NCBI GenBank assembly: GCA_014762645.1
Contig: JABURP010000072.1
Span: 1 to 55,389, forward strand
Origin: Crocinitomicaceae bacterium
GTDB lineage: Bacteria > Bacteroidota > Bacteroidia > Flavobacteriales_D > Crocinitomicaceae
Direction: 5' to 3'
Length of the DNA stretch: 55,389 nt
This document shows, one piece after another, positions 13,937 to 38,112 of the stretch (its first letter is position 1; every line of letters starts with the position of its first letter). The notes beneath the pieces are model-generated. The model made no database searches. It worked only from the letters and a program-made list of their open reading frames with translations, and had not been told where the DNA came from. Made by a program: the position numbers and the translations under genes.

Positions 13937-14001
13937 TTTACTTATTTTAGCGGCTTGTTGGAGTATTCTGACGATAAATGGTATTGAAAAAAACACACTT
14001 T

Positions 14002-14961
14002 ATGAAGAAGGTTTTATCTTTTGCAATCTGTGCACTGACACTACAACTGTCGTATGCGCAGCAAGATAAACAGTACACTCATTACATGTTTGACAAGATC
14101 TCTTTTAACCCTGCTGCTACCGGGACAAGGGGATATTGTGGAACAGTGATTTATCGTAATCAATGGGACAGGGTTCAGGATGCTCCGAATACTACCCTTT
14201 TAAATGTTCAGGCCAACCTCCAGCAATATAACATGGGTGTAGGTTTGTCATTTACGAATGATGCGATTGGGTTTCAAAGAAATAATACTGTTGTTTTAAA
14301 TGCAGCTTATCATTATCCTACTAATGCAGGTGTATTATCAGGTGGATTAGGTTTGGGAATTGTTAATGTAGGGTTTGATCCTACCTGGATTCCGCCACAA
14401 ACAATGGTAGATGCATTATTACCAACAGCTTCAGCAGGAACGGGGTTTGATATGAATCTAGGGCTATACTGGCATGGATCATCAGCTCCTTATTACGTTG
14501 GGCTTTCCATGACGCATCTAGCACCACCTACTCTAAAGTCAATTAACTTTAAAGTGGCCAGACATTATTATGTTATTGCTGGATATGACTTACCTTTAAG
14601 TGATATGCTTAATTGGGGTACTAGAGTTGATATTAAACCAAGTACGTTAATTAAGGCTGATGGCGCAGGAATGGTGTTTGATGTTAATATTATGGGAGAC
14701 GTTTGGTTAAATAATTATTCGTTCTTATGGGGAGGCTTTACGTATCGTTTAGCTGACGCGGTAGCATTACAACTTGGGTACGCTTTTTCTCCGGTTAATG
14801 ACATGAAGAAAAACGTACTTAAATTCGGATATTCGTTTGATATAATGACAAACCCACTCAATACATATGGTAAAGGGACGCATGAGTTAATGCTTAACTT
14901 TTGCATGTTCCCGCCACCTCCAGTGGTTCCTAGACATGGTAATCCATTTATATTGCAGTAG
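14002..14961 (+). CDS. porP: PorP/SprF family type IX secretion membrane protein (core operon)
   Basis: A 319-residue outer-membrane protein of the PorP/SprF family, a T9SS component and, in related proteins, the docking partner of type B sorting domains. The start MKKVLSFAICALTLQLSYAQ gives a signal peptide; an earlier in-frame ATG at 13978 would put a charged tail ahead of it. The family opening is clear (QYTHYMFDKISFNPAATGTR, then YRNQWD). The rest is a series of amphipathic strands ending HELMLNFCMFP, like other PorP proteins. Its place directly before gldKLMN mirrors porP-porKLMN of Porphyromonas, so I call it the core-operon PorP. A second paralogue lies at 27.2-28.1 kb. Confidence 0.9.
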   Translation: MKKVLSFAICALTLQLSYAQQDKQYTHYMFDKISFNPAATGTRGYCGTVIYRNQWDRVQDAPNTTLLNVQANLQQYNMGVGLSFTNDAIGFQRNNTVVLNAAYHYPTNAGVLSGGLGLGIVNVGFDPTWIPPQTMVDALLPTASAGTGFDMNLGLYWHGSSAPYYVGLSMTHLAPPTLKSINFKVARHYYVIAGYDLPLSDMLNWGTRVDIKPSTLIKADGAGMVFDVNIMGDVWLNNYSFLWGGFTYRLADAVALQLGYAFSPVNDMKKNVLKFGYSFDIMTNPLNTYGKGTHELMLNFCMFPPPPVVPRHGNPFILQ

Positions 14962-28106: not shown

Positions 28107-31100
28107 TTATTTTTTGATTTCAATTGATCCGTTTTCCGGCTCAGTATTGTCATCCAATTTTAAGATATAAAAGTATGTTCCGGTTACCACAACGTCTCCG
28201 GTTATGGTTCTTTTCCCTTCTGCCTGTCCACTCCAGTCGTTATTGTATGGGGAAGCAGTGTAAACGATATCTCCCCAACGATTAAAGATGGTTAGGCTGT
28301 TATTCGGGTAAGCATCTAATCCTTCTATTACAAACACGTCATTAATTCCATCTCCATTCGGTGAAAAACCTCCTGGTATGCTTAGTTCCACTTCGTCTGA
28401 TACGCTTATTCTAACAACCGCAGTATCGCAAATAGCAGAACAGAAAACGTCACAAATGGTATATGTAATGGAGTCATCACCAACATAACTAGTAAATGGT
28501 AGATAATCTATGCTGCCATCAGCTTGAACAGATCCAACCCCATTTTGCGGGCCTTGCAAGATGGCTACTGTCAACGGATCACCAGTGTCATTGGATGAAA
28601 CATTAATATTAACAAGTGTTCCAACTCCTGTGGATGCATTGTCATCAACAGCACTTACGGTTGATGAACTTTGAACGCTTACCGTTATAGATCCACTGCT
28701 TGTACAGCCGTTAGCATCTGTAAGATCTACTGTATAAGTCGTTGTTGTCGTTGGCGAAACGTCAATACTATTAGTGGTTTCAGATGTTGACCAAAGCAGA
28801 GTTCCTGAACCGGTAGCAGTTAGTGTTACTGTTTCACCCACACAAATATTTTCATCTGATGATACCGCTAAACTAGGTAAGCTATTTACAGTGATAGTTA
28901 ATGATTGTATACCACCAATATTTCCACAACCATTCGTGTTTTCTGCTTCAAGATAATAGGTTGTTGTAGTTGACGGTGTGACATCCATTGGAGCTGTTCC
29001 TAAGAGATTTCCTCCTGTAGCAGCATCATAAACGTTGTAGTCAACCGCACCGGATCCTGTACCAGAAAGTGTAACTGTTTCTCCGGCACAAATAGTACTG
29101 TCAGTAGCACTAAAGGTTGGTGTTGCCGGGGCTGTCAGCACTTCAATATCTTGTGTGGAAGCGTCGGTACACGAACCACTACCAACAGTATACGTTACCG
29201 ATATCATTCCAGATAAACCAAGTGGATCAAATGTTGAACCGGAAACTCCTGATCCTGACCATGAACCACCTGTACTTCCTGTAACGAGGGCATCCAGATT
29301 AATCGGTGGATCACTTTCACACAATGCGGCTGGTGGTGTCCAGGTGGCCGTTACCGAAGTTTCTACTGTAATATCATGGGATACACTCACCGGACATGTT
29401 GAGCCGACCGTATATGTTACGGTAACCGTACTTCCATTTAAGCCGGTTGGATCAAAGGTAGTTCCGGATACGCCCGTACCAGACCAGGTTCCACCAGGAT
29501 CACCTGTTACTAAGGTACTTAAATCAATTGTACCTGCACTCTCGCAGACAGTTCCCGGAGATGTCCAGGAACCATCAGATAATGCATTCACATTAATACT
29601 TTGTGTTGTTGTACCCGTACATCCGGATTGTGTTACCGAGTACTCAATATTGATGGTTCCGGCTGCTGTAGATGTCAACACATCATTTGAGATGGTTCCA
29701 GGACCACTGAGTACAGTCCATGTACCTCCAGCAGGAGTTCCGGTAAGATTAACAATGTCTCCGGCACAAATAGCAGATCCACTACTCGTAATAGAAGGAG
29801 AAGGAACCGGATTTACAGTTACAGTAACTGAAGCACAAGTTGTGGTATTACATGTTCCTTCCGCTCTTACAAAATAGGTAGTTGTGGTAGTAGGACTTAC
29901 AGAAACTGAACTTCCTGACCCTACAACAGTACCACCACAAGAACCACTGTACCATTCCCAACTGGCGCCAGTACCCAATGATCCCCCACTCACATTCAGT
30001 GTTGTACTACTGCCTTCACAAATTGTTGATTGAGTAGCACTGGCACCAGTTGGAGCTGTGGATTCAGAATTTAAATTAACCGTAACAGATTGACAAGTAG
30101 TTGTATTACAGGTTCCTTCTGCACGAACATAATAAGTTGTTGTAGACAACGGGCTCACCGAAACACTGGTGCCGGATCCTACCGGAGTACCCCCACAAGA
30201 ACCACTATACCATTGCCAGCTTCCTCCTGTACCCAGTGATCCTCCTGATAATGAAAGTGTGGTTGATCCGCCAGGGCAAATGGGGTTAGGACTTGCACTA
30301 GCACTACTCGCTCCTGTTGAATTTGAATTTACAGTTACGCTCACTGAAGCACATGTTGTAATACCGCATGGGCCTTCAACGCGAACAAAATAAGTTGTAT
30401 TTGAACCTGGGGAGACCACAACTGATGCTCCACTTCCTACTGGTGTTCCACCACAGGATCCACTATACCACTGATAAGAATCGCCTGCTCCCAGGGATCC
30501 ACCAACCTGGGTCAGTGTTGTAGAGTTACCGGAACAAATGGTGGTAGTTCCGGAAACAGAAGTTGGTGCGGTTGCGGTTGAACCTCCCGCGTCTTCAATT
30601 AATAAGATAGTGTTGGAGGATGAGCCCGTTAAAGTCCCTTCAAAAAATGCTCCTCCGCCGGGATCTGTTGTAGGGAAGTTAAGACTTGCGGTTGTAGGTG
30701 AAAAGAACTGTTTATAACCACATGAGTTTGCAATTGTTGCCGGTTCAATTTTTCTACCATAACAAGCATCTGATCCCGAACCACCATAATAAGTTGACCA
30801 TTCATTTACACCACCTGATGTGAATCGCATCAGTACCAAATCATTGGAACCTGCATTTGTTGCCTGATTGTAAGACCCAGCCAGGTTTTGTATAGGAAAA
30901 TTTGTTGCTGATGTATATCCAATAGCATATATATTTCCACTGTTATCAGAAGCTATCCCTGAAATGGACGCATCTGCCGTTGTTGCGCCTACATAGGTTC
31001 CCCAGGTATATACACCACCAGGACTAAACTTCATGATGAATCCATCCGTTGCTGATTGCAAAGTGCCGTAGTAAAATGCTCCTCCTCCCGGATTGACAGT

Positions 31101-32873
31101 AGGCATTCCGGCACGCACCATTCTACTTGCCACTAAAATATTTCCTGATGGATCTGTAGACACTTCTGAAACTCTGTCCAAATCTGTTCCTCCAATTATG
31201 GTTGACCAAGTTGGCTGCAGAGAAGTATTAAATTTTGCAATAATATGATCGATAAAACCACTAATCGTATTACTGAAATATGCTCCACCGCCAGGGTTTA
31301 GCGTATAAGCAGATGTGGCATCATTTGATATTTGACCGACAAGGATCATATTTCCTGATGCATCAAAAGTGATGTCAGATCCTTGCTGATAACCAGTTGC
31401 TGCTCCATTACCACTGTTAAAATACGTACTCCATTCAAGAACGCAATCAGTGTTAAACCTACCTAAAAATATATCCTGATTTCCTACAAAAGTTGAGTTG
31501 TTATAAGCACCTCCTAGTGCAACTATAGGAATATCAAAACCACTGAACTGATACGTTTGTCCAGTGAAATAGACTTTTGTGCCGTTACATTTAATCCCGT
31601 TAATTCGAATACCTGCACCTGAAGTTGATGCATTCGTATGTTGGTAAAGTGTTCCCCATTGTCTTACACCATTTTGGTCAAATTTGATAATGAAGGAATT
31701 ATCGCCACCTTTCAGGTTGGAATCATCCTGGTACCACGCTCCTCCTACACCTGATGATTGGGTAGGGAATGTAGTTGGATTACTGTTGGCATAGCCACCA
31801 AGATAAATACCATCATTATCATCTACATCTAATGTCTTTCCGTAATCTCCTCCGGTACCGCATAGGTAATCTCCTTTATCACCTCCGTAATAAGTAACCC
31901 ATTGTAACGTCATATCACTATTAAACCGTAGTATTACAAGGTCTGTAATTCCGTCGTGAGATGAATCGAAATACTGTCCGGCACCAGCATTAATGGTTGT
32001 CCATAAAGCGGAGTAAGTTGAATAAGCCAGGTACATGTTTTCGGCTGAATCATAAGCACCGTTGCAGTGAAAGTCTGAATTCCCTCCATTATCATAGTAG
32101 GTAGACCACGTAACTGTAGGGTCTATAATGATTGTTTTTGACTCGTCGTAGTCTTCCACGTCAAATCCAACCGAGCCTTCATTAATAACAAAGTCACTTT
32201 TTATTGATTTTTCTTCGTCCTGATAAAAGCTGATAGGTTCATTTTCTTTGAAAGGACCAAAATCATTGGAAACCGTTAATGCTCTATCTTCAATATCCAA
32301 TGAACTAGCACCATTATAGGTGAATTTTATATCATTAATGTTTCCTCCGGGATGAACAATAAATTCATATTTCAAGTTTCCATCTACGGATTTATAAACA
32401 AGGTCAATATTTGGGTAGACCTCTTTGTATGTTATTTTGCTATACGTTGGAACTTTGGTGATTCCTTGTGGGCATTGAGGTAGATAATAATTCACATAAG
32501 CATTTGACTGACCTTCCATTTCAAATGTCGCATCCGGATTGGAATTGATCAATCTGAAATCCATTCTGTAGAAGTATACTTTTTTACCGATCTCATTAAA
32601 GTCACCACGTTGATGAGCATTTTGTTCGGCTTCAGTATATTCAGAAGGATTTTTTTCTATCTCACGATAAAAATGATAGACAATTCCACTCGGAGTAAAA
32701 TAAGCGTTAACACCAGGGGTTTCGAGTTTAAAATCAATACTGTCAAGCACCTGATGATGTTCATTGGCAATTTGACCTCGGTTAGGAATTAAACCGGTAT
32801 TTGTCTTAAAATCTATTTGTCCTATGGAATAAAAGGAAATAAGTGCACAAAGGAAAAGTAATATTTTTTTCAT
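28107..32873 (-). CDS. Large T9SS type B surface protein: beta-propeller and Ig-like repeats
   Basis: A 1588-residue secreted protein. Order of parts: signal peptide (residues 1-18); an N-terminal domain of the kind found on gliding-associated proteins (about 20-250, with PNRGQIANEHH); a series of SBBP-type propeller repeats (WSTYYGGSGSDACYG, DSSGNIYAIGYTSA and similar, about 255-760); three Ig-like repeats of 86 residues (WYSGSCGGTPVGSG, TTTYYVRAEG); further Ig/PKD-like domains; and the C-terminal gliding-associated type B sorting domain (PGGFSPNGDGINDVFVIEG, IFNRWGDIVY). The sorting domain predicts T9SS export and surface attachment, with the adjacent PorP/SprF as partner. Ligand unknown; an adhesin role is inferred from the domains. 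Confidence 0.92.
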   Translation of the reverse strand: MKKILLFLCALISFYSIGQIDFKTNTGLIPNRGQIANEHHQVLDSIDFKLETPGVNAYFTPSGIVYHFYREIEKNPSEYTEAEQNAHQRGDFNEIGKKVYFYRMDFRLINSNPDATFEMEGQSNAYVNYYLPQCPQGITKVPTYSKITYKEVYPNIDLVYKSVDGNLKYEFIVHPGGNINDIKFTYNGASSLDIEDRALTVSNDFGPFKENEPISFYQDEEKSIKSDFVINEGSVGFDVEDYDESKTIIIDPTVTWSTYYDNGGNSDFHCNGAYDSAENMYLAYSTYSALWTTINAGAGQYFDSSHDGITDLVILRFNSDMTLQWVTYYGGDKGDYLCGTGGDYGKTLDVDDNDGIYLGGYANSNPTTFPTQSSGVGGAWYQDDSNLKGGDNSFIIKFDQNGVRQWGTLYQHTNASTSGAGIRINGIKCNGTKVYFTGQTYQFSGFDIPIVALGGAYNNSTFVGNQDIFLGRFNTDCVLEWSTYFNSGNGAATGYQQGSDITFDASGNMILVGQISNDATSAYTLNPGGGAYFSNTISGFIDHIIAKFNTSLQPTWSTIIGGTDLDRVSEVSTDPSGNILVASRMVRAGMPTVNPGGGAFYYGTLQSATDGFIMKFSPGGVYTWGTYVGATTADASISGIASDNSGNIYAIGYTSATNFPIQNLAGSYNQATNAGSNDLVLMRFTSGGVNEWSTYYGGSGSDACYGRKIEPATIANSCGYKQFFSPTTASLNFPTTDPGGGAFFEGTLTGSSSNTILLIEDAGGSTATAPTSVSGTTTICSGNSTTLTQVGGSLGAGDSYQWYSGSCGGTPVGSGASVVVSPGSNTTYFVRVEGPCGITTCASVSVTVNSNSTGASSASASPNPICPGGSTTLSLSGGSLGTGGSWQWYSGSCGGTPVGSGTSVSVSPLSTTTYYVRAEGTCNTTTCQSVTVNLNSESTAPTGASATQSTICEGSSTTLNVSGGSLGTGASWEWYSGSCGGTVVGSGSSVSVSPTTTTTYFVRAEGTCNTTTCASVTVTVNPVPSPSITSSGSAICAGDIVNLTGTPAGGTWTVLSGPGTISNDVLTSTAAGTINIEYSVTQSGCTGTTTQSINVNALSDGSWTSPGTVCESAGTIDLSTLVTGDPGGTWSGTGVSGTTFDPTGLNGSTVTVTYTVGSTCPVSVSHDITVETSVTATWTPPAALCESDPPINLDALVTGSTGGSWSGSGVSGSTFDPLGLSGMISVTYTVGSGSCTDASTQDIEVLTAPATPTFSATDSTICAGETVTLSGTGSGAVDYNVYDAATGGNLLGTAPMDVTPSTTTTYYLEAENTNGCGNIGGIQSLTITVNSLPSLAVSSDENICVGETVTLTATGSGTLLWSTSETTNSIDVSPTTTTTYTVDLTDANGCTSSGSITVSVQSSSTVSAVDDNASTGVGTLVNINVSSNDTGDPLTVAILQGPQNGVGSVQADGSIDYLPFTSYVGDDSITYTICDVFCSAICDTAVVRISVSDEVELSIPGGFSPNGDGINDVFVIEGLDAYPNNSLTIFNRWGDIVYTASPYNNDWSGQAEGKRTITGDVVVTGTYFYILKLDDNTEPENGSIEIKK
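29805..30580 (-). repeat. Three tandem 258-bp repeats encoding Ig-like domains
   Basis: Inside the adhesin gene the same sequence pattern recurs with an exact 258-bp period (for example CCTTC words at 29857, 30115 and 30373), encoding 86-residue Ig-like modules. Edges are approximate. The copies are similar but not identical, so they have diverged since duplication. They could change number by recombination. Confidence 0.75.
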
Positions 32874-33950: not shown

Positions 33951-35486
33951 TTATCCCAACCAGCCATCTCTATCCAGACTTCTAAAACTTATTGCTTCTG
34001 CAATATGGGTAGCTTTAATCTTATTAGAATGATCGAGATCTGCAATGGTGCGGGAAACTTTAAGTATCCTTGAATATGATCGGGCTGAAAACCCAAGCTT
34101 GTTCATAGCCGTTTTTATTAAAAGCTTCCCGTTCTTGTCAATTTTACAATATTTCTCGATTAAGGTAGGACTTAACTGTGCATTGTAGTATACACCTTTG
34201 ATGTCTTTGAGCCGGTTAGCCTGAAATTTTCTGGCTTGAACAACGCGTTTACGTATGGATTTACTGCATTCACCTTTCCGCTCATCTGACAATTCATCAA
34301 ATTTCACTGCGGGTACTTCAATGTGCAGATCAATTCGATCCATTAATGGACCAGAAACTTTGTTCAGGTATCGCTTTACTGCAAATTCAGGATCTGAGTT
34401 AGGATCATTTGGGTCATAAAAATTCCCTGAAGGAGAGGGGTTCATTGATGCCACCAACATAAATCCAGAGGGGTATTCTACAGTCATTTTAGCTCTTGAA
34501 ATGGTCACAATCCGGTCTTCTAACGGTTGACGCATTACTTCAAGTACCTGTCTTTTATATTCAGGTAGCTCGTCTAAAAATAAAATTCCATTGTGAGCTA
34601 AAGATATTTCTCCAGGTTTGGGGTTTGAGCCTCCGCCAACCAGCGCGACATCTGAAACCGTATGGTGTGGCGATCGAAATGGTCGATTGGTCATCAATCC
34701 ACTATTTGGAGAGATCAAACCCGCTACCGAATGAATTTTTGTGGTTTCCAATGCTTCATCTACTGTTAATGGAGGTAGGATAGAGGGCAGTCGTTTGGCA
34801 AGCATTGTTTTTCCTGATCCCGGCGGCCCTACCAATAAGATATTGTGTCCGCCAGCCGCAGCAATTTCAAGAGCACGCTTTACGTTTTCCTGTCCCTTTA
34901 CATCCGAAAAATCCATAAACCCGCTATTCGCCAGGTCTTCCTTCGAGTTTTCTTCAAATACGGCAGGTGTCAATTGAATGTCACCATTAAAAAAGCCCAT
35001 CACTTCTTTGATATGTTCAATACCATAAATGTTTAGGTCCGTGACAATGGCAACTTCATTTTGGTTTTGTTTGGGTAGGATAAAGCCTTTAAAACCCAGC
35101 TCTTTTGCTTTGAGAGCAATAGGTAGTGCACCCTTTATTGGTCGTAAACTGCCATCCAGGGATAACTCTCCCATGATCAGGTATTCCGAGACATCTTCTG
35201 ATTCAATTTGTCCGGAAGCGGAGAGAATGCCAACGGCAATGGTGAGATCATACGCCGAACCTTCCTTTCGGATGTCCGCAGGAGCGAGATTGACCGTGAT
35301 TTCTTTACCTGGATATTTGAATTCAGAATTCGAAAAAGCCGCTTTAATTCGTTTATGACTTTCTTTTACGGCACTGTCGGGTAATCCAACCATGTGAAAA
35401 TTAATGCCACGACCAATATTTGTTTCAACAGTAATAGGTATCGCCTCTATGCCATAAACGGCACAGCCATAGGTTTTTATCAACAT
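33951..35486 (-). CDS. YifB/ComM family Mg-chelatase-like AAA+ ATPase
   Basis: A 511-residue protein of the YifB/ComM family, linked to natural transformation as a branch-migration helicase in proteobacteria. The N-terminal Lon-like S5 domain (residues 1-165, LPDSAVKESHKRIKAA) is followed by the Mg-chelatase AAA+ core with Walker A VGPPGSGKTMLAKR, Walker B GILFLDELPE and RPFRSPHHTVSD. The C-terminal helical domain (NKLGFSARSYSRILKVSRTIADL) is complete. Length is typical. No other competence gene lies nearby. It is transcribed alone; the 505-nt region upstream holds the 176-bp tandem repeats. Confidence 0.95.
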   Translation of the reverse strand: MLIKTYGCAVYGIEAIPITVETNIGRGINFHMVGLPDSAVKESHKRIKAAFSNSEFKYPGKEITVNLAPADIRKEGSAYDLTIAVGILSASGQIESEDVSEYLIMGELSLDGSLRPIKGALPIALKAKELGFKGFILPKQNQNEVAIVTDLNIYGIEHIKEVMGFFNGDIQLTPAVFEENSKEDLANSGFMDFSDVKGQENVKRALEIAAAGGHNILLVGPPGSGKTMLAKRLPSILPPLTVDEALETTKIHSVAGLISPNSGLMTNRPFRSPHHTVSDVALVGGGSNPKPGEISLAHNGILFLDELPEYKRQVLEVMRQPLEDRIVTISRAKMTVEYPSGFMLVASMNPSPSGNFYDPNDPNSDPEFAVKRYLNKVSGPLMDRIDLHIEVPAVKFDELSDERKGECSKSIRKRVVQARKFQANRLKDIKGVYYNAQLSPTLIEKYCKIDKNGKLLIKTAMNKLGFSARSYSRILKVSRTIADLDHSNKIKATHIAEAISFRSLDRDGWLG

Positions 35487-35600
35487 ACTTAAAATTTTGA
35501 TTAAACAATAGCAGGCGAGTTACTGCTGAAACAAATATACACAAAGATTAGATTATAATCAAATAAACGACTAAAAAATAATCAAATCAGAGAATTTATA

Positions 35601-35994
35601 TCGGGATTGATGATGTCATTGCGTTCTGGTTCGTCCTCGTTACCCTTCGACCCTGCTCACAGGGTATCACACACTGCTAAATATGATCTGTGCATTGAAA
35701 AATAAACAAGACATTTGTCTACGCATCATCCCGATACTTATTTTCTACGGTCACTGAGTTCCCTTGAAAATATAGATCGGGATTGATGATGTCATTGCGT
35801 TCTGGTTCGTCCTCGTTACCCTTCGACCCTGCTCACAGGGTATCACACACTGCTAAATATGATCTGTGCATTGAAAAATAAACAAGACATTTGTCTACGC
35901 ATCATCCCGATACTTATTTTCTACGGTCACTGAGTTCCCTTGAAAATATAGATCGGGATTGATGATGTCATTGCGTTCTGGTTCGTCCTCGTTA
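35601..35994. repeat. 176-bp tandem repeat, two identical copies plus 42 bp of a third
   Basis: Copies at 35601-35776 and 35777-35952 appear identical throughout; a partial third copy, 35953-35994, ends in the stop codon of the SpoIIE-phosphatase gene. Each unit holds a hairpin ACCCTG-CTCA-CAGGGT (first copy 35650-35665) and near-inverted ends, TCGGGATTGATGATG at the start and CATCATCCCGA 123 bp later. Words such as CCCTTCGACCCTG and GGTCACTGAG recall short dispersed repeats of Bacteroidota genomes. No gene is seen inside. The spacer from 35487 to 35600 contains only AT-rich DNA and a 10-bp palindrome, GATTATAATC (35551-35560). Perfect identity implies recent duplication. Confidence 0.92.
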
Positions 35995-38112
35995 TACTCG
36001 GACTCCCATAACGCAGACATCATCAATCTGTTCCATGCCTTGTTTCCACTCCCAAAATTCGGAGGAAATGAGTTCTTTTTGTTTTTGGAGGCTGTTATTA
36101 CTTGTTCTGACCAATAATTCTTTGAAGCGTTTGTATTTGTATTTTTTACCTTTTTCACCACCAAATTGATCCGGATATCCATCAGAAGACATATAAATTG
36201 TATCTCCTTTGTTGATGTCTAATTCATGTGTGGTAAACGGTGAAGTGGTTACATAACCACCAATTGGTTGTTTATTAGGTTTTATCTCTTCAAGCTCGGT
36301 GGTACCTTTTCTTAAAACGAGCAAGGAATTATTGGCACCAGCCCAGGCCAGTTTCATAGTTTTTTTATTGAAACGACAGAAAGAGATGTCCATACCATCA
36401 TTTACGGTGTGTCCTTTTCGGGCAAATTGTTGAATCACAATATCTCGGGTGTGGTTGAGTATCTCACCCGGATCAGAGATGTTGAGCTCATGAAGAACTT
36501 TTCTGATTGCGTTGGAACATACAATGGAAACCATTGCTCCAGGTACACCGTGTCCCGTGCAGTCGGCAACAGAAAAATAAACATAATCACCTACCTCTTC
36601 AAGAATATAAAAATCACCAGCAACTATATCCTTTGGCTGATACATCAGAAATGATTCTTCGAAATGGATTTGAAAATCAGTTTCATCTGGTAAAAATGAA
36701 TTTTGAATACGTTTGGCGTAGGTTATACTATCCGTAATTTCTTTTTTCTGTTCAGCAATCTCATCTCTTTGAAGTTCTAGTTGTCTATTCGTTCGTGTTT
36801 TGAGTCGATTACGATTGATCAGGAAAAACAGGCCGGAAACGAGTATCAAACCTATTGATCCTCCAATGATCCATTGTCTTTCTTGTGCACTTCTTGCTTG
36901 TTGACGCTCTTGTTCTAACTGTAAATCCTTTAATTTTGCCTGTTCCTGTAGTAACGCATTTTCTGCTTCCTTTTTCTCTGTCTCATACTTGGTAATAGCG
37001 TCTTCAAATGCTGCGTCTGATTTAAGTTTACTCAGGCTATCGTTTAATGTTTTAGACTGCAGAGCAAAATTGTAAGCTAATTTATAATTCCCCATATTGC
37101 TGTAGCAGTATGAAAGCATTTTGGTTCGGTACGCCTGATTGTCCAGATTACCTAATTTTTCTGCTACAGAAAGTGCTTCACCAAATGCTTCAGCAGCTTC
37201 TTTATAGTTGCCTTCAGCAAGTGCAATTTCTCCAAGAGTGTGATTAGCATTTCCAATTCCTTGTAGATAATCAAGTTCAGTGCATATATCTAATCCATCT
37301 CTTGCGTGAATTTTTGCTAGGTCAAAGTTTTCGGCTTCTACATACAATGAAGCTAAATTGGCTCTAGCATTTCCAGACGAGTAAGAATAATAATCATATT
37401 TGCTATGGATGTCTACCGCCCTTTTGAGTTGGTCTATAGCATCATCCAGGTTTCCCATGTAATAATAACACCACCCAATATTTGATTCAGTAACAGCCCA
37501 ATCGTTGAAATTGTCGCGTAAACTTAAGCGAGACAGCAGGATATCCTTGGCTTTTGTATAGTATTCAAGTGCTTTTTTGTTTTTGTCGCGATAATAATAG
37601 AAGCCGCCTAAATTATTATAGGTGGCAATGAGGTTTTTGAAGTCTTTCTTCTCTTCCATTATTTCAATAGCTTCAAGCGTATGTTGCAGGGACAATTTGT
37701 CCTTCTGTAGTGCGTCTTCAATTTGTCCGAGATCAGATAAAATACTGGCCAAAAGCAATTGAAATTTATTGGCCCGCGCCACTTCAGCACCTTCTTTTAG
37801 TAACACTTCCGCTTTCTCATAATCTCCCTGAAAGAAATAATGAATTCCTAAGAGTTGAGAAGACTTAGCAAGTTGATAGGGATGCTTGCCGATTTTGGAT
37901 TGTCGATTGGCCTCCATGAGTAAGCTTTCATGCCGGGATGGAGATGCTTCTTCTACCATGGCAGCAAGTTCAAATATGAGGTTAATCTTAAGTGAGTCGT
38001 AATCCGGATACTGGTTGATAAGATTTCTGATGCTATCTTCTTGTGCATTCGTGTTCTGGCCAAATACCGAAGCACCAATAAATAACATGAAGACAAGCCA
38101 GATCCATTTCAT
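35992..38112 (-). CDS. TPR-coiled coil-SpoIIE/PP2C phosphatase, membrane-anchored
   Basis: A 706-residue signalling protein. A signal peptide (MKWIWLVFMLFIGASVFG) leads a periplasmic array of tetratricopeptide repeats (about residues 40-370, for example YNNLGGFYYYRDKNKKALEYY). A coiled coil (EKKEAENALLQEQ) and one membrane helix (WIIGGSIGLILVSGLFFLI) precede a cytoplasmic PP2C-type serine phosphatase of the SpoIIE class (about 465-706). Metal-binding acidic residues sit in DIVAGDFY, ADCTGHGVPGAM, SSDGYPDQ and IDDVCVMGV. The layout predicts sensing outside and dephosphorylation of an anti-sigma-factor antagonist or similar target inside. The target is not in the window. Its stop codon lies in the edge of the 176-bp repeat, and the 21-nt shared element lies upstream. 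Confidence 0.92.
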   Translation of the reverse strand: MKWIWLVFMLFIGASVFGQNTNAQEDSIRNLINQYPDYDSLKINLIFELAAMVEEASPSRHESLLMEANRQSKIGKHPYQLAKSSQLLGIHYFFQGDYEKAEVLLKEGAEVARANKFQLLLASILSDLGQIEDALQKDKLSLQHTLEAIEIMEEKKDFKNLIATYNNLGGFYYYRDKNKKALEYYTKAKDILLSRLSLRDNFNDWAVTESNIGWCYYYMGNLDDAIDQLKRAVDIHSKYDYYSYSSGNARANLASLYVEAENFDLAKIHARDGLDICTELDYLQGIGNANHTLGEIALAEGNYKEAAEAFGEALSVAEKLGNLDNQAYRTKMLSYCYSNMGNYKLAYNFALQSKTLNDSLSKLKSDAAFEDAITKYETEKKEAENALLQEQAKLKDLQLEQERQQARSAQERQWIIGGSIGLILVSGLFFLINRNRLKTRTNRQLELQRDEIAEQKKEITDSITYAKRIQNSFLPDETDFQIHFEESFLMYQPKDIVAGDFYILEEVGDYVYFSVADCTGHGVPGAMVSIVCSNAIRKVLHELNISDPGEILNHTRDIVIQQFARKGHTVNDGMDISFCRFNKKTMKLAWAGANNSLLVLRKGTTELEEIKPNKQPIGGYVTTSPFTTHELDINKGDTIYMSSDGYPDQFGGEKGKKYKYKRFKELLVRTSNNSLQKQKELISSEFWEWKQGMEQIDDVCVMGVRV

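Follow-up and report, generated by a model that had tools for sequence, protein, structure and literature searches.

Upon insertion into the icd gene of E. coli, prophage e14 regenerates the 3′ end of its target gene with other codons, as do similar integrative elements. Elements of the e14 type are large and bring a recombinase, whereas the gene-tail cassettes described here are far smaller and contain no gene. Fungal mitochondrial elements of Allomyces and Glomus, found in atp6, atp9, cox2 and nad3, combine a C-terminal duplication with an endonuclease; according to the accessible part of the source, they resemble the cassettes in that a new in-frame C-terminus is provided, the native one is displaced downstream, the protein is little changed and the codons differ (PMC3630166). 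However, the fungal elements, as that part presents them, carry an endonuclease open reading frame (ORF) (PMC3630166), whereas the cassettes, at about 60–180 bp, leave no room for one; they are palindromic, form stacks and belong to a family of bacterial genes. REP palindromes often lie downstream of genes, at times within ORFs or supplying stop codons, form inverted pairs and bear a GTAG or CGTC tag at one end (PMC3733652, available portion), and for Bacteroidetes a Y1 subclass with atypical structures has been described (PMC6006769, available portion). With REP/REPIN and RAYT systems, as covered in these portions, the cassettes share short palindromes, a frequent position 3′ of genes and the occurrence of inverted pairs (PMC3733652; PMC6006769), but they differ in three respects: no matching transposase was found, the coding end of the host gene and an inverted copy of it are included, and the cassettes are concentrated on one gene family. 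Among the titles searched on SpoIIE paralogues and gene conversion in Bacteroidetes and on TPR in Flavobacteriales, no description of SpoIIE tail cassettes was found, and one REP string had no published match in the literature searched.

The 176-bp Array at a SpoIIE Gene End

The window, i.e., the whole analyzed stretch of 55,389 nucleotides from a Crocinitomicaceae bacterium (genome G000; three congeners are G001, G002 and G003), contains at 35593–35994 an array of period 176 with 2.3 copies as detected by TRF. Repeat search and self-comparison placed two full 176-bp copies at 35602–35777 and 35778–35953, which are 100% identical, as the original prediction had stated, and a partial third copy at 35954–35994, which measures 41 bp instead of the predicted 42 bp and whose last three bases (35992–35994) are indeed the TAA stop codon of the SpoIIE gene. 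This host gene (35992–38112, minus strand) encodes a TPR/SpoIIE phosphatase of 706 aa with a PF07228 match. The near-inverted pieces and the two shared words that had been reported for the unit were all found in the sequence; GGTCACTGAG is a putative dispersed repeat of Bacteroidota. The coding end of the gene together with its stop (..QIDDVCVMGVRV plus stop; 35992–36028, minus strand), here termed X, forms the left arm of a hairpin. For the right arm, X′ (35952–35991, minus strand), the gene-proximal copy provides an imperfect inverted version of X that follows immediately 3′ of the stop codon. On the gene strand, the piece adjoining the window gene is thus an inverted near-copy of the last codons (ATTGATGATGTCTGCGTT ... 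AACGCAATGACATCATCAAT), which places the stop codon close to the end of a long hairpin, at its tip. A decayed REP-type core, reading TACCCTGTGAGCAGGGTCGAAGGGTA on the gene strand, is located between an older gene-end remnant and its X′ at 35641–35666 (minus strand), with a second copy at 35817–35842 (minus strand); a less decayed one is present at L079 (CCCTGAGCGCAGTTGAAGGG). A further palindrome, TCCCGAT..TATTTTC..GAAAATA..ATCGGGA, referred to as the P module, occupies 35729–35782 and, as a second copy, 35905–35958, both on the minus strand.

The whole unit has no second copy in its own genome: among 28 matches at E ≤ 10, those above 50 bp are the array itself only. In 38 relatives, the sole match at E ≤ 0.001 was a stretch of 45 nt in G005. 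A dispersed element consisting of the complete 176-bp unit is ruled out by the lack of a second copy in the genome. The uniqueness that the original prediction had named as evidence against itself was thus found for the whole unit but not for its parts, which belong to families. Several of the weaker matches within G000 (L004/L005, L007, L008/L009, L010 and L017) mark 3′ ends of further SpoIIE genes. Elsewhere in the window, three diverged, spaced repeats of 258 bp (29811–30503) are located within a large minus-strand gene (28107–32873); they are Ig-like and ordinary.

Tail Classes of SpoIIE Genes in the Same Genome

PF07228 gave 43 matches in G000, corresponding to about 41 genes. About half of the SpoIIE ends read in this genome are cassette-like, and about half have no cassette, which counts against the cassette reading. 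The tail classes start in the codons of DDVCVIG, and the C-terminal peptide is nearly constant while the codons differ (families A, B and C; class membership was judged by eye). Class A comprises five genes with ..GTGATTGGTGTTCGCATATAG followed by a hairpin, and class B six genes (L037, L049, L056, L060, L079 and L080) with ..GTAATCGGGGTGAGAATTTGA and a hairpin, to which a second hairpin is added in five of the six. Whole or partial class B ends also occur downstream of class A in four genes, and four others (L040, L050, L059 and L082) have no more in common with class B than its coding end, exactly or in a similar form. Class C consists of the window gene, L039, L042, L043 and L078, and the gene in L017/L053 fits it less well; the typical layout is ..GTTATAGGAGTCCGCGTG plus stop, in some copies a core TACCCTGAGC..GTCGAAGGGTA, and an inverted arm, e.g., ..ACCAGAACGCAATGACATCATCAATCCCGA. 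A different tail is common to the pair L077 and L081. Tails are stacked in the order gene–A–B–C, the newer tail standing ahead of the displaced older one: A is followed by B in L038, L045, L051 and L052 and by C in L034, and B is followed by C in L037, L056, L060, L079 and L080.

A DNA query made of classes A and B returned 17 matches in the own genome at E < 0.005, all of which are SpoIIE ends as checked against the PF07228 matches. Identity within the tail was far above that of the upstream coding DNA, namely 91 vs. 64% for class A, 93 vs. 68% for class B and 94 vs. 66% for E1, a cassette of G001, with an all-pairs upstream background of 62–64%. Tandem arrays are present at other SpoIIE ends too, with a 114-bp unit at L078 and a 141-bp unit at L043. 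Five SpoIIE phosphatase genes form a tandem cluster on the minus strand of contig C7 (9993–19069).

Cassettes in Related Genomes and Empty Orthologues

In G001, a sister species, cassette E1 (GTAATAGGTGTGAGAATATAA TTCGAACATCTATTTAAGCAGTTTATCCTGA..GTCGAAGG) was found in nine genes, each time followed by a second end starting with GTAAT. The new ends of these genes are 96.5% alike over the last 16 nt, the displaced ones 65.3% over 16 nt, and the displaced ends kept their stop in eight of nine cases; the right junction between GTCGAAGG and GTAAT is constant in eight genes and in L271. G190, a genome of another genus, has a SpoIIE gene whose second tail is a related cassette (L266). Furthermore, a gene end including the stop is duplicated exactly over 24 bp at L272 of G003, and the cassette is tandemly repeated at a SpoIIE end of G002 (L177) and, with a unit of about 59 bp, in an uncultured Flavobacteriales record (L235, the one that was read among the five matches, L231–L235, of a pattern scan of an 84,980-genome collection). 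The junction between core and VIG codons had 12 matches in five of 299 genomes of the order, ten of them at SpoIIE ends, and no match in the own genome.

Orthologues were defined as reciprocal best matches with a matching downstream gene, and their emptiness was judged by eye. The window gene is paired with L112 of G001, where an insert is lacking: when the two are aligned, the array stands out as extra DNA between the last codons and a common intergenic run, TTTGATTATTTTTTAGTC. Empty orthologues in G001 were also found for L037 (L109), L038 (L108) and L043 (L113). For L042 of class C, the orthologue in G001 (L128) carries E1 and that in G003 (L104) a class-C-like tail. Conversely, L058 of G000 is empty and cassettes are present at the orthologous ends L121, L184 and L158; for L184, the downstream gene matches only weakly (77 bits). 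The displaced end of L121 reads VIGVRV without the GF of the orthologues L058, L158 and L184, so that identity of the displaced with the native end is not proven at this gene. That displaced ends are native ends would follow from their mutual divergence and not from orthologues, which speaks against the cassette reading. On contig C1 of G001 (position 349149, minus strand), an orphan SpoIIE end (..EQLDDDCVIGVKF plus stop) has no SpoIIE gene ahead of it and is probably a remnant.

These comparisons show that short cassettes, about 60–180 bp long and mostly palindromic, sit in the DDVCVIGVR codons of SpoIIE phosphatase genes in G000 and its three congeners. Every cassette brings its own in-frame C-terminus and stop, and where cassettes succeed one another a further gene end lies downstream. 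Moreover, one and the same cassette recurs at several paralogues with different upstream coding DNA, and syntenic orthologues can be empty or occupied by another cassette.

Counts of Displaced and Copied Gene Ends

From the congeners, SpoIIE ends were taken for 42 out of 57 matches (G001), 21 out of 42 (G002) and 39 out of 51 (G003), for the most part those with the highest scores. In total, 139 ends were parsed, of which 137 entered the nucleotide test and 138 the peptide profile, with L033, L061, L083, L085 and L086 set aside. A C-terminal peptide profile, searched in up to 600 nt 3′ of the stop with a threshold score of at least 15, detected displaced second ends at 12 of 38 SpoIIE ends in G000, 6 of 41 in G001, 2 of 20 in G002 and 3 of 39 in G003. 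The combination of a new in-frame and a displaced C-terminus known from the fungal elements was thus found at 23 of 138 SpoIIE ends at this score, and in the nine E1 genes. Shuffled and antisense controls each gave 0 of 138 (maximum scores 14.0 and 12.7, respectively). The nucleotide copy test at score 14 found a direct copy at 11 of 137 SpoIIE ends and an inverted copy at two of 137; the mere 11 ends that it finds alone weigh against the cassette reading. Since this test misses diverged stacked tails, the peptide profile was used as well.

None of 372 non-SpoIIE genes from about 455 kb of G000 had a direct or inverted end copy at score 14, with three at 13.5, and no copied end was detected at score 14 among 334 non-SpoIIE genes of G001 (0 of 706 with G000). 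In 400 kb of G001, a single gene of 345 scored at least 13.5, and it is a SpoIIE gene with three tandem tails of period 91 bp in a single-contig genome. When unfiltered ORFs of the window were tested, one of 36 scored 22 (direct). Since the filtered gene set has none in the window, this ORF probably runs antisense to gene 28107–32873 within the repeats there.

Hairpins at the Stop Codon and the Inverted Arm

The hairpin formed by gene end and partial copy (35950–36034) has a folding energy of −39.5 kcal/mol with a z-score of −6.8, and none of 200 shuffles was as good. By itself, the 176-bp unit is not exceptional, neither as DNA (z −1.5, 18 of 200 shuffles as good) nor as RNA (z −1.9, 8 of 200). 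At other SpoIIE ends, z-scores were −5.1 (L042), −2.7 (L051), −1.7 (L079) and −0.7 (L236, with E1); not every cassette end is unusually structured, as L236 and L079 illustrate, and this is a further point against the cassette reading. Base pairs bridging the stop were more numerous at SpoIIE ends than at other genes, with means of 16.1 vs. 10.9 in G000 (p = 1.6e-4) and 16.6 vs. 9.9 in G001 (p = 2.9e-6). At least ten such pairs were present at 30 of 38 SpoIIE ends and at 130 of 250 control genes in G000, i.e., they are common at ordinary genes too. No Rfam match was obtained over 35400–36200 at E ≤ 1, and a known RNA family was rejected for this interval; a structured 3′ RNA, as originally predicted, may yet arise here. 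The class C hairpin of L042 (C7 of G000, about 14000–14100) has a second perfect palindrome (CTGCCTCACGGCAGGCAG) nested in it, toward the loop.

The X′ of the window has its best pairing partner in the end of its own gene (rank 1 of 38 paralogues), and rank 1 among 20–42 paralogues was found at 11 of 24 loci picked by eye, the window included; at the other 13 of these hand-picked loci X′ was not best for its own gene, contrary to what the cassette reading would favor. Among unselected genes, the own end was within the best 10% for X′ pairing in 20–29% per genome. X′ was either made from the local gene end or kept paired with that end. Deviations of the class C inverted arm are common to several genes and two species, so that this arm seems also to travel.

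REP-Type Cores, the P Module and Candidate Enzymes

REP-type palindromes are the core of many cassettes. The pattern CCCTTCGACNNNGCTCA matched the two window copies only, because most cores have other spacing, whereas CTGAGCN{1,6}GTCGAAG had 4, 4, 22 and 18 matches in G000, G001, G002 and G003, respectively, and the reversed-pattern control had none in any of them. The core is a short palindromic REP-type repeat dispersed in the genome, of low copy number in G000 and G001, and in part it forms inverted pairs. All four cores of G000 are inside reading frames of three SpoIIE genes (CTGAGCGGAGTCGAAG; C124:20735–20813, C60:18155–18170 and C78:1787–1802), and in C124, where they form an inverted pair, the phosphatase domain gains in-frame residues from them. 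At SpoIIE ends, three of four cores were found in G001, seven of 18 in G003 and none of the 11 examined of 22 in G002; that G002 and G003 also have cores at sites other than SpoIIE genes counts against the cassette reading. The P module occurs at one other SpoIIE end, L039 (C44), and behind two tRNA genes, namely tRNA-Gly (GCC) in C62 of G000 (L006, 1484–1652), and tRNA-Gln (TTG) in G005 (L029, 1344–1662). In both cases the 3′ end of the tRNA is repeated beyond the module, over 17 bp in L006. The anatomy of these sites is the same as at SpoIIE ends.

PF00078 (reverse transcriptase) had no match in the four genomes, with three of 14 control genomes positive, and a retroelement origin (retron, group II intron or DGR) was ruled out on this basis. 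Matches to Y1 transposases numbered one, three, zero and one in G000–G003, that of the own genome being partial; Y1 genes with NHVH and YIHNNP are present in G001 and G003. The REP transposase with matching ends that the original prediction had proposed to look for did not emerge: the genus has five Y1 loci, and in the flanks of the four that were scanned (L187, L188, L190 and L032, with L189 left aside) there was no core but only the hexamer CTGAGC, which argues against a RAYT with matching ends. G002, which has an array (L177) and no Y1 match, counts against the cassette reading, and so does the fact that no enzyme for the cassettes was found among the PF00078 and Y1 matches. With regard to the features of MITEs, namely terminal inverted repeats in common with an autonomous element and a fixed target duplication, palindromic modules and duplicated ends were seen, lengths vary, and the search for an autonomous element covered Y1 and PF00078. 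The Y1 gene at L187 (C1:138085 of G001) is flanked by a direct repeat and by CGCG palindromes unrelated to the core of the SpoIIE tails.

Discussion

In our view, the array in the window is likely a tandemly duplicated, partly decayed gene-tail cassette that arose as follows. A REP-type palindrome would enter a gene end, the last 20–40 bp (X) would be duplicated with an inverted copy X′ left between, yielding X–X′–core–X, and the finished cassette would be recopied into other paralogues at codons in common. Since the cassette restores the C-terminus, insertion should cost the protein little, and cassettes would therefore accumulate and stack; direct repeats of X would allow tandem amplification, as in the window, where a class C cassette plus P module may have been duplicated and the gene-proximal copy may have lost its REP core. 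The small non-autonomous mobile or REP-like element, later duplicated, that had been predicted is in line with the decayed REP-type core, the absence of the array from the G001 orthologue and the related cassettes at paralogue ends. Its placement behind the gene is incomplete: the left arm is the coding end itself, and cassettes belong to SpoIIE ends, apart from the two tRNA cases, and they stack and displace older ends. As to the chemistry, fold-back template switching at the palindrome would be the simplest route to the duplicated X and X′, and recopying might proceed via the short common codons. Fold-back copying at replication forks, which would leave X–X′–X, combined with short-homology recombination among the roughly 40–57 paralogues is a guess to which we give somewhat less than an even chance. 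Alternatively, this step could be transposition by some enzyme, a dedicated transposase being the main alternative.

It is conceivable, though rather doubtful, that the same cassettes are moved as single-stranded hairpins by a Y1 (RAYT-like) or other transposase for which SpoIIE ends are the preferred target and X′ is perhaps a guide. The dispersed REP-type core with its partly inverted pairs and the constant right junction of E1 would suit such an enzyme, and the Y1 genes with NHVH and YIHNNP in G001 and G003 resemble Bacteroidetes subclass 2.6 as far as it is covered by the accessible part of PMC6006769. However, the core is absent from the flanks of the four scanned Y1 loci, G002 has no Y1 and the own genome a partial match only, and cassettes other than E1 break at other codons. 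We regard it as similarly speculative that the cassettes are a class of mobile DNA targeting one gene family, in which each hairpin cassette would bring a synonymous version of the C-terminus of that family, X′ would act as a guide pairing with the target end, each insertion would become the new gene end and demote the old one and the tails would be a readable invasion stack.

It seems improbable that the tails have a function of their own, in termination or in stabilizing the mRNA 3′ end, and became common to several genes by gene conversion among paralogues, with no mobile element involved. The strong stop-codon hairpins of class C and the excess of stop-bridging pairs over controls would fit this explanation, as would a family of many paralogues, in which conversion is expected. 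Plain conversion, however, replaces an end, whereas at these genes a further end, complete with a stop, stays downstream; moreover, empty orthologues exist and REP-type cores are found elsewhere too. That the array is no more than a local tandem duplication, or else an error in the assembly of the window contig, and has no wider meaning is very improbable: despite the fact that the unit lacks another copy and both copies are identical, so that the last step was a local duplication in any case, its parts belong to families and arrays with other unit lengths stand at SpoIIE ends (114, 141, about 59 and, three times in the single-contig G001, 91 bp).

If the reading of the array as a duplicated gene-tail cassette is true, very small elements would survive within coding sequence with little harm by means of a synonymous copy of the gene end that they invade. 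As the stacks would record the insertion order for each gene, the spread of REP-like palindromes and their clustering at gene ends would become testable by strain comparison. The 3′ ends in a large family of paralogues may thus have a history apart from that of the remainder of the gene.
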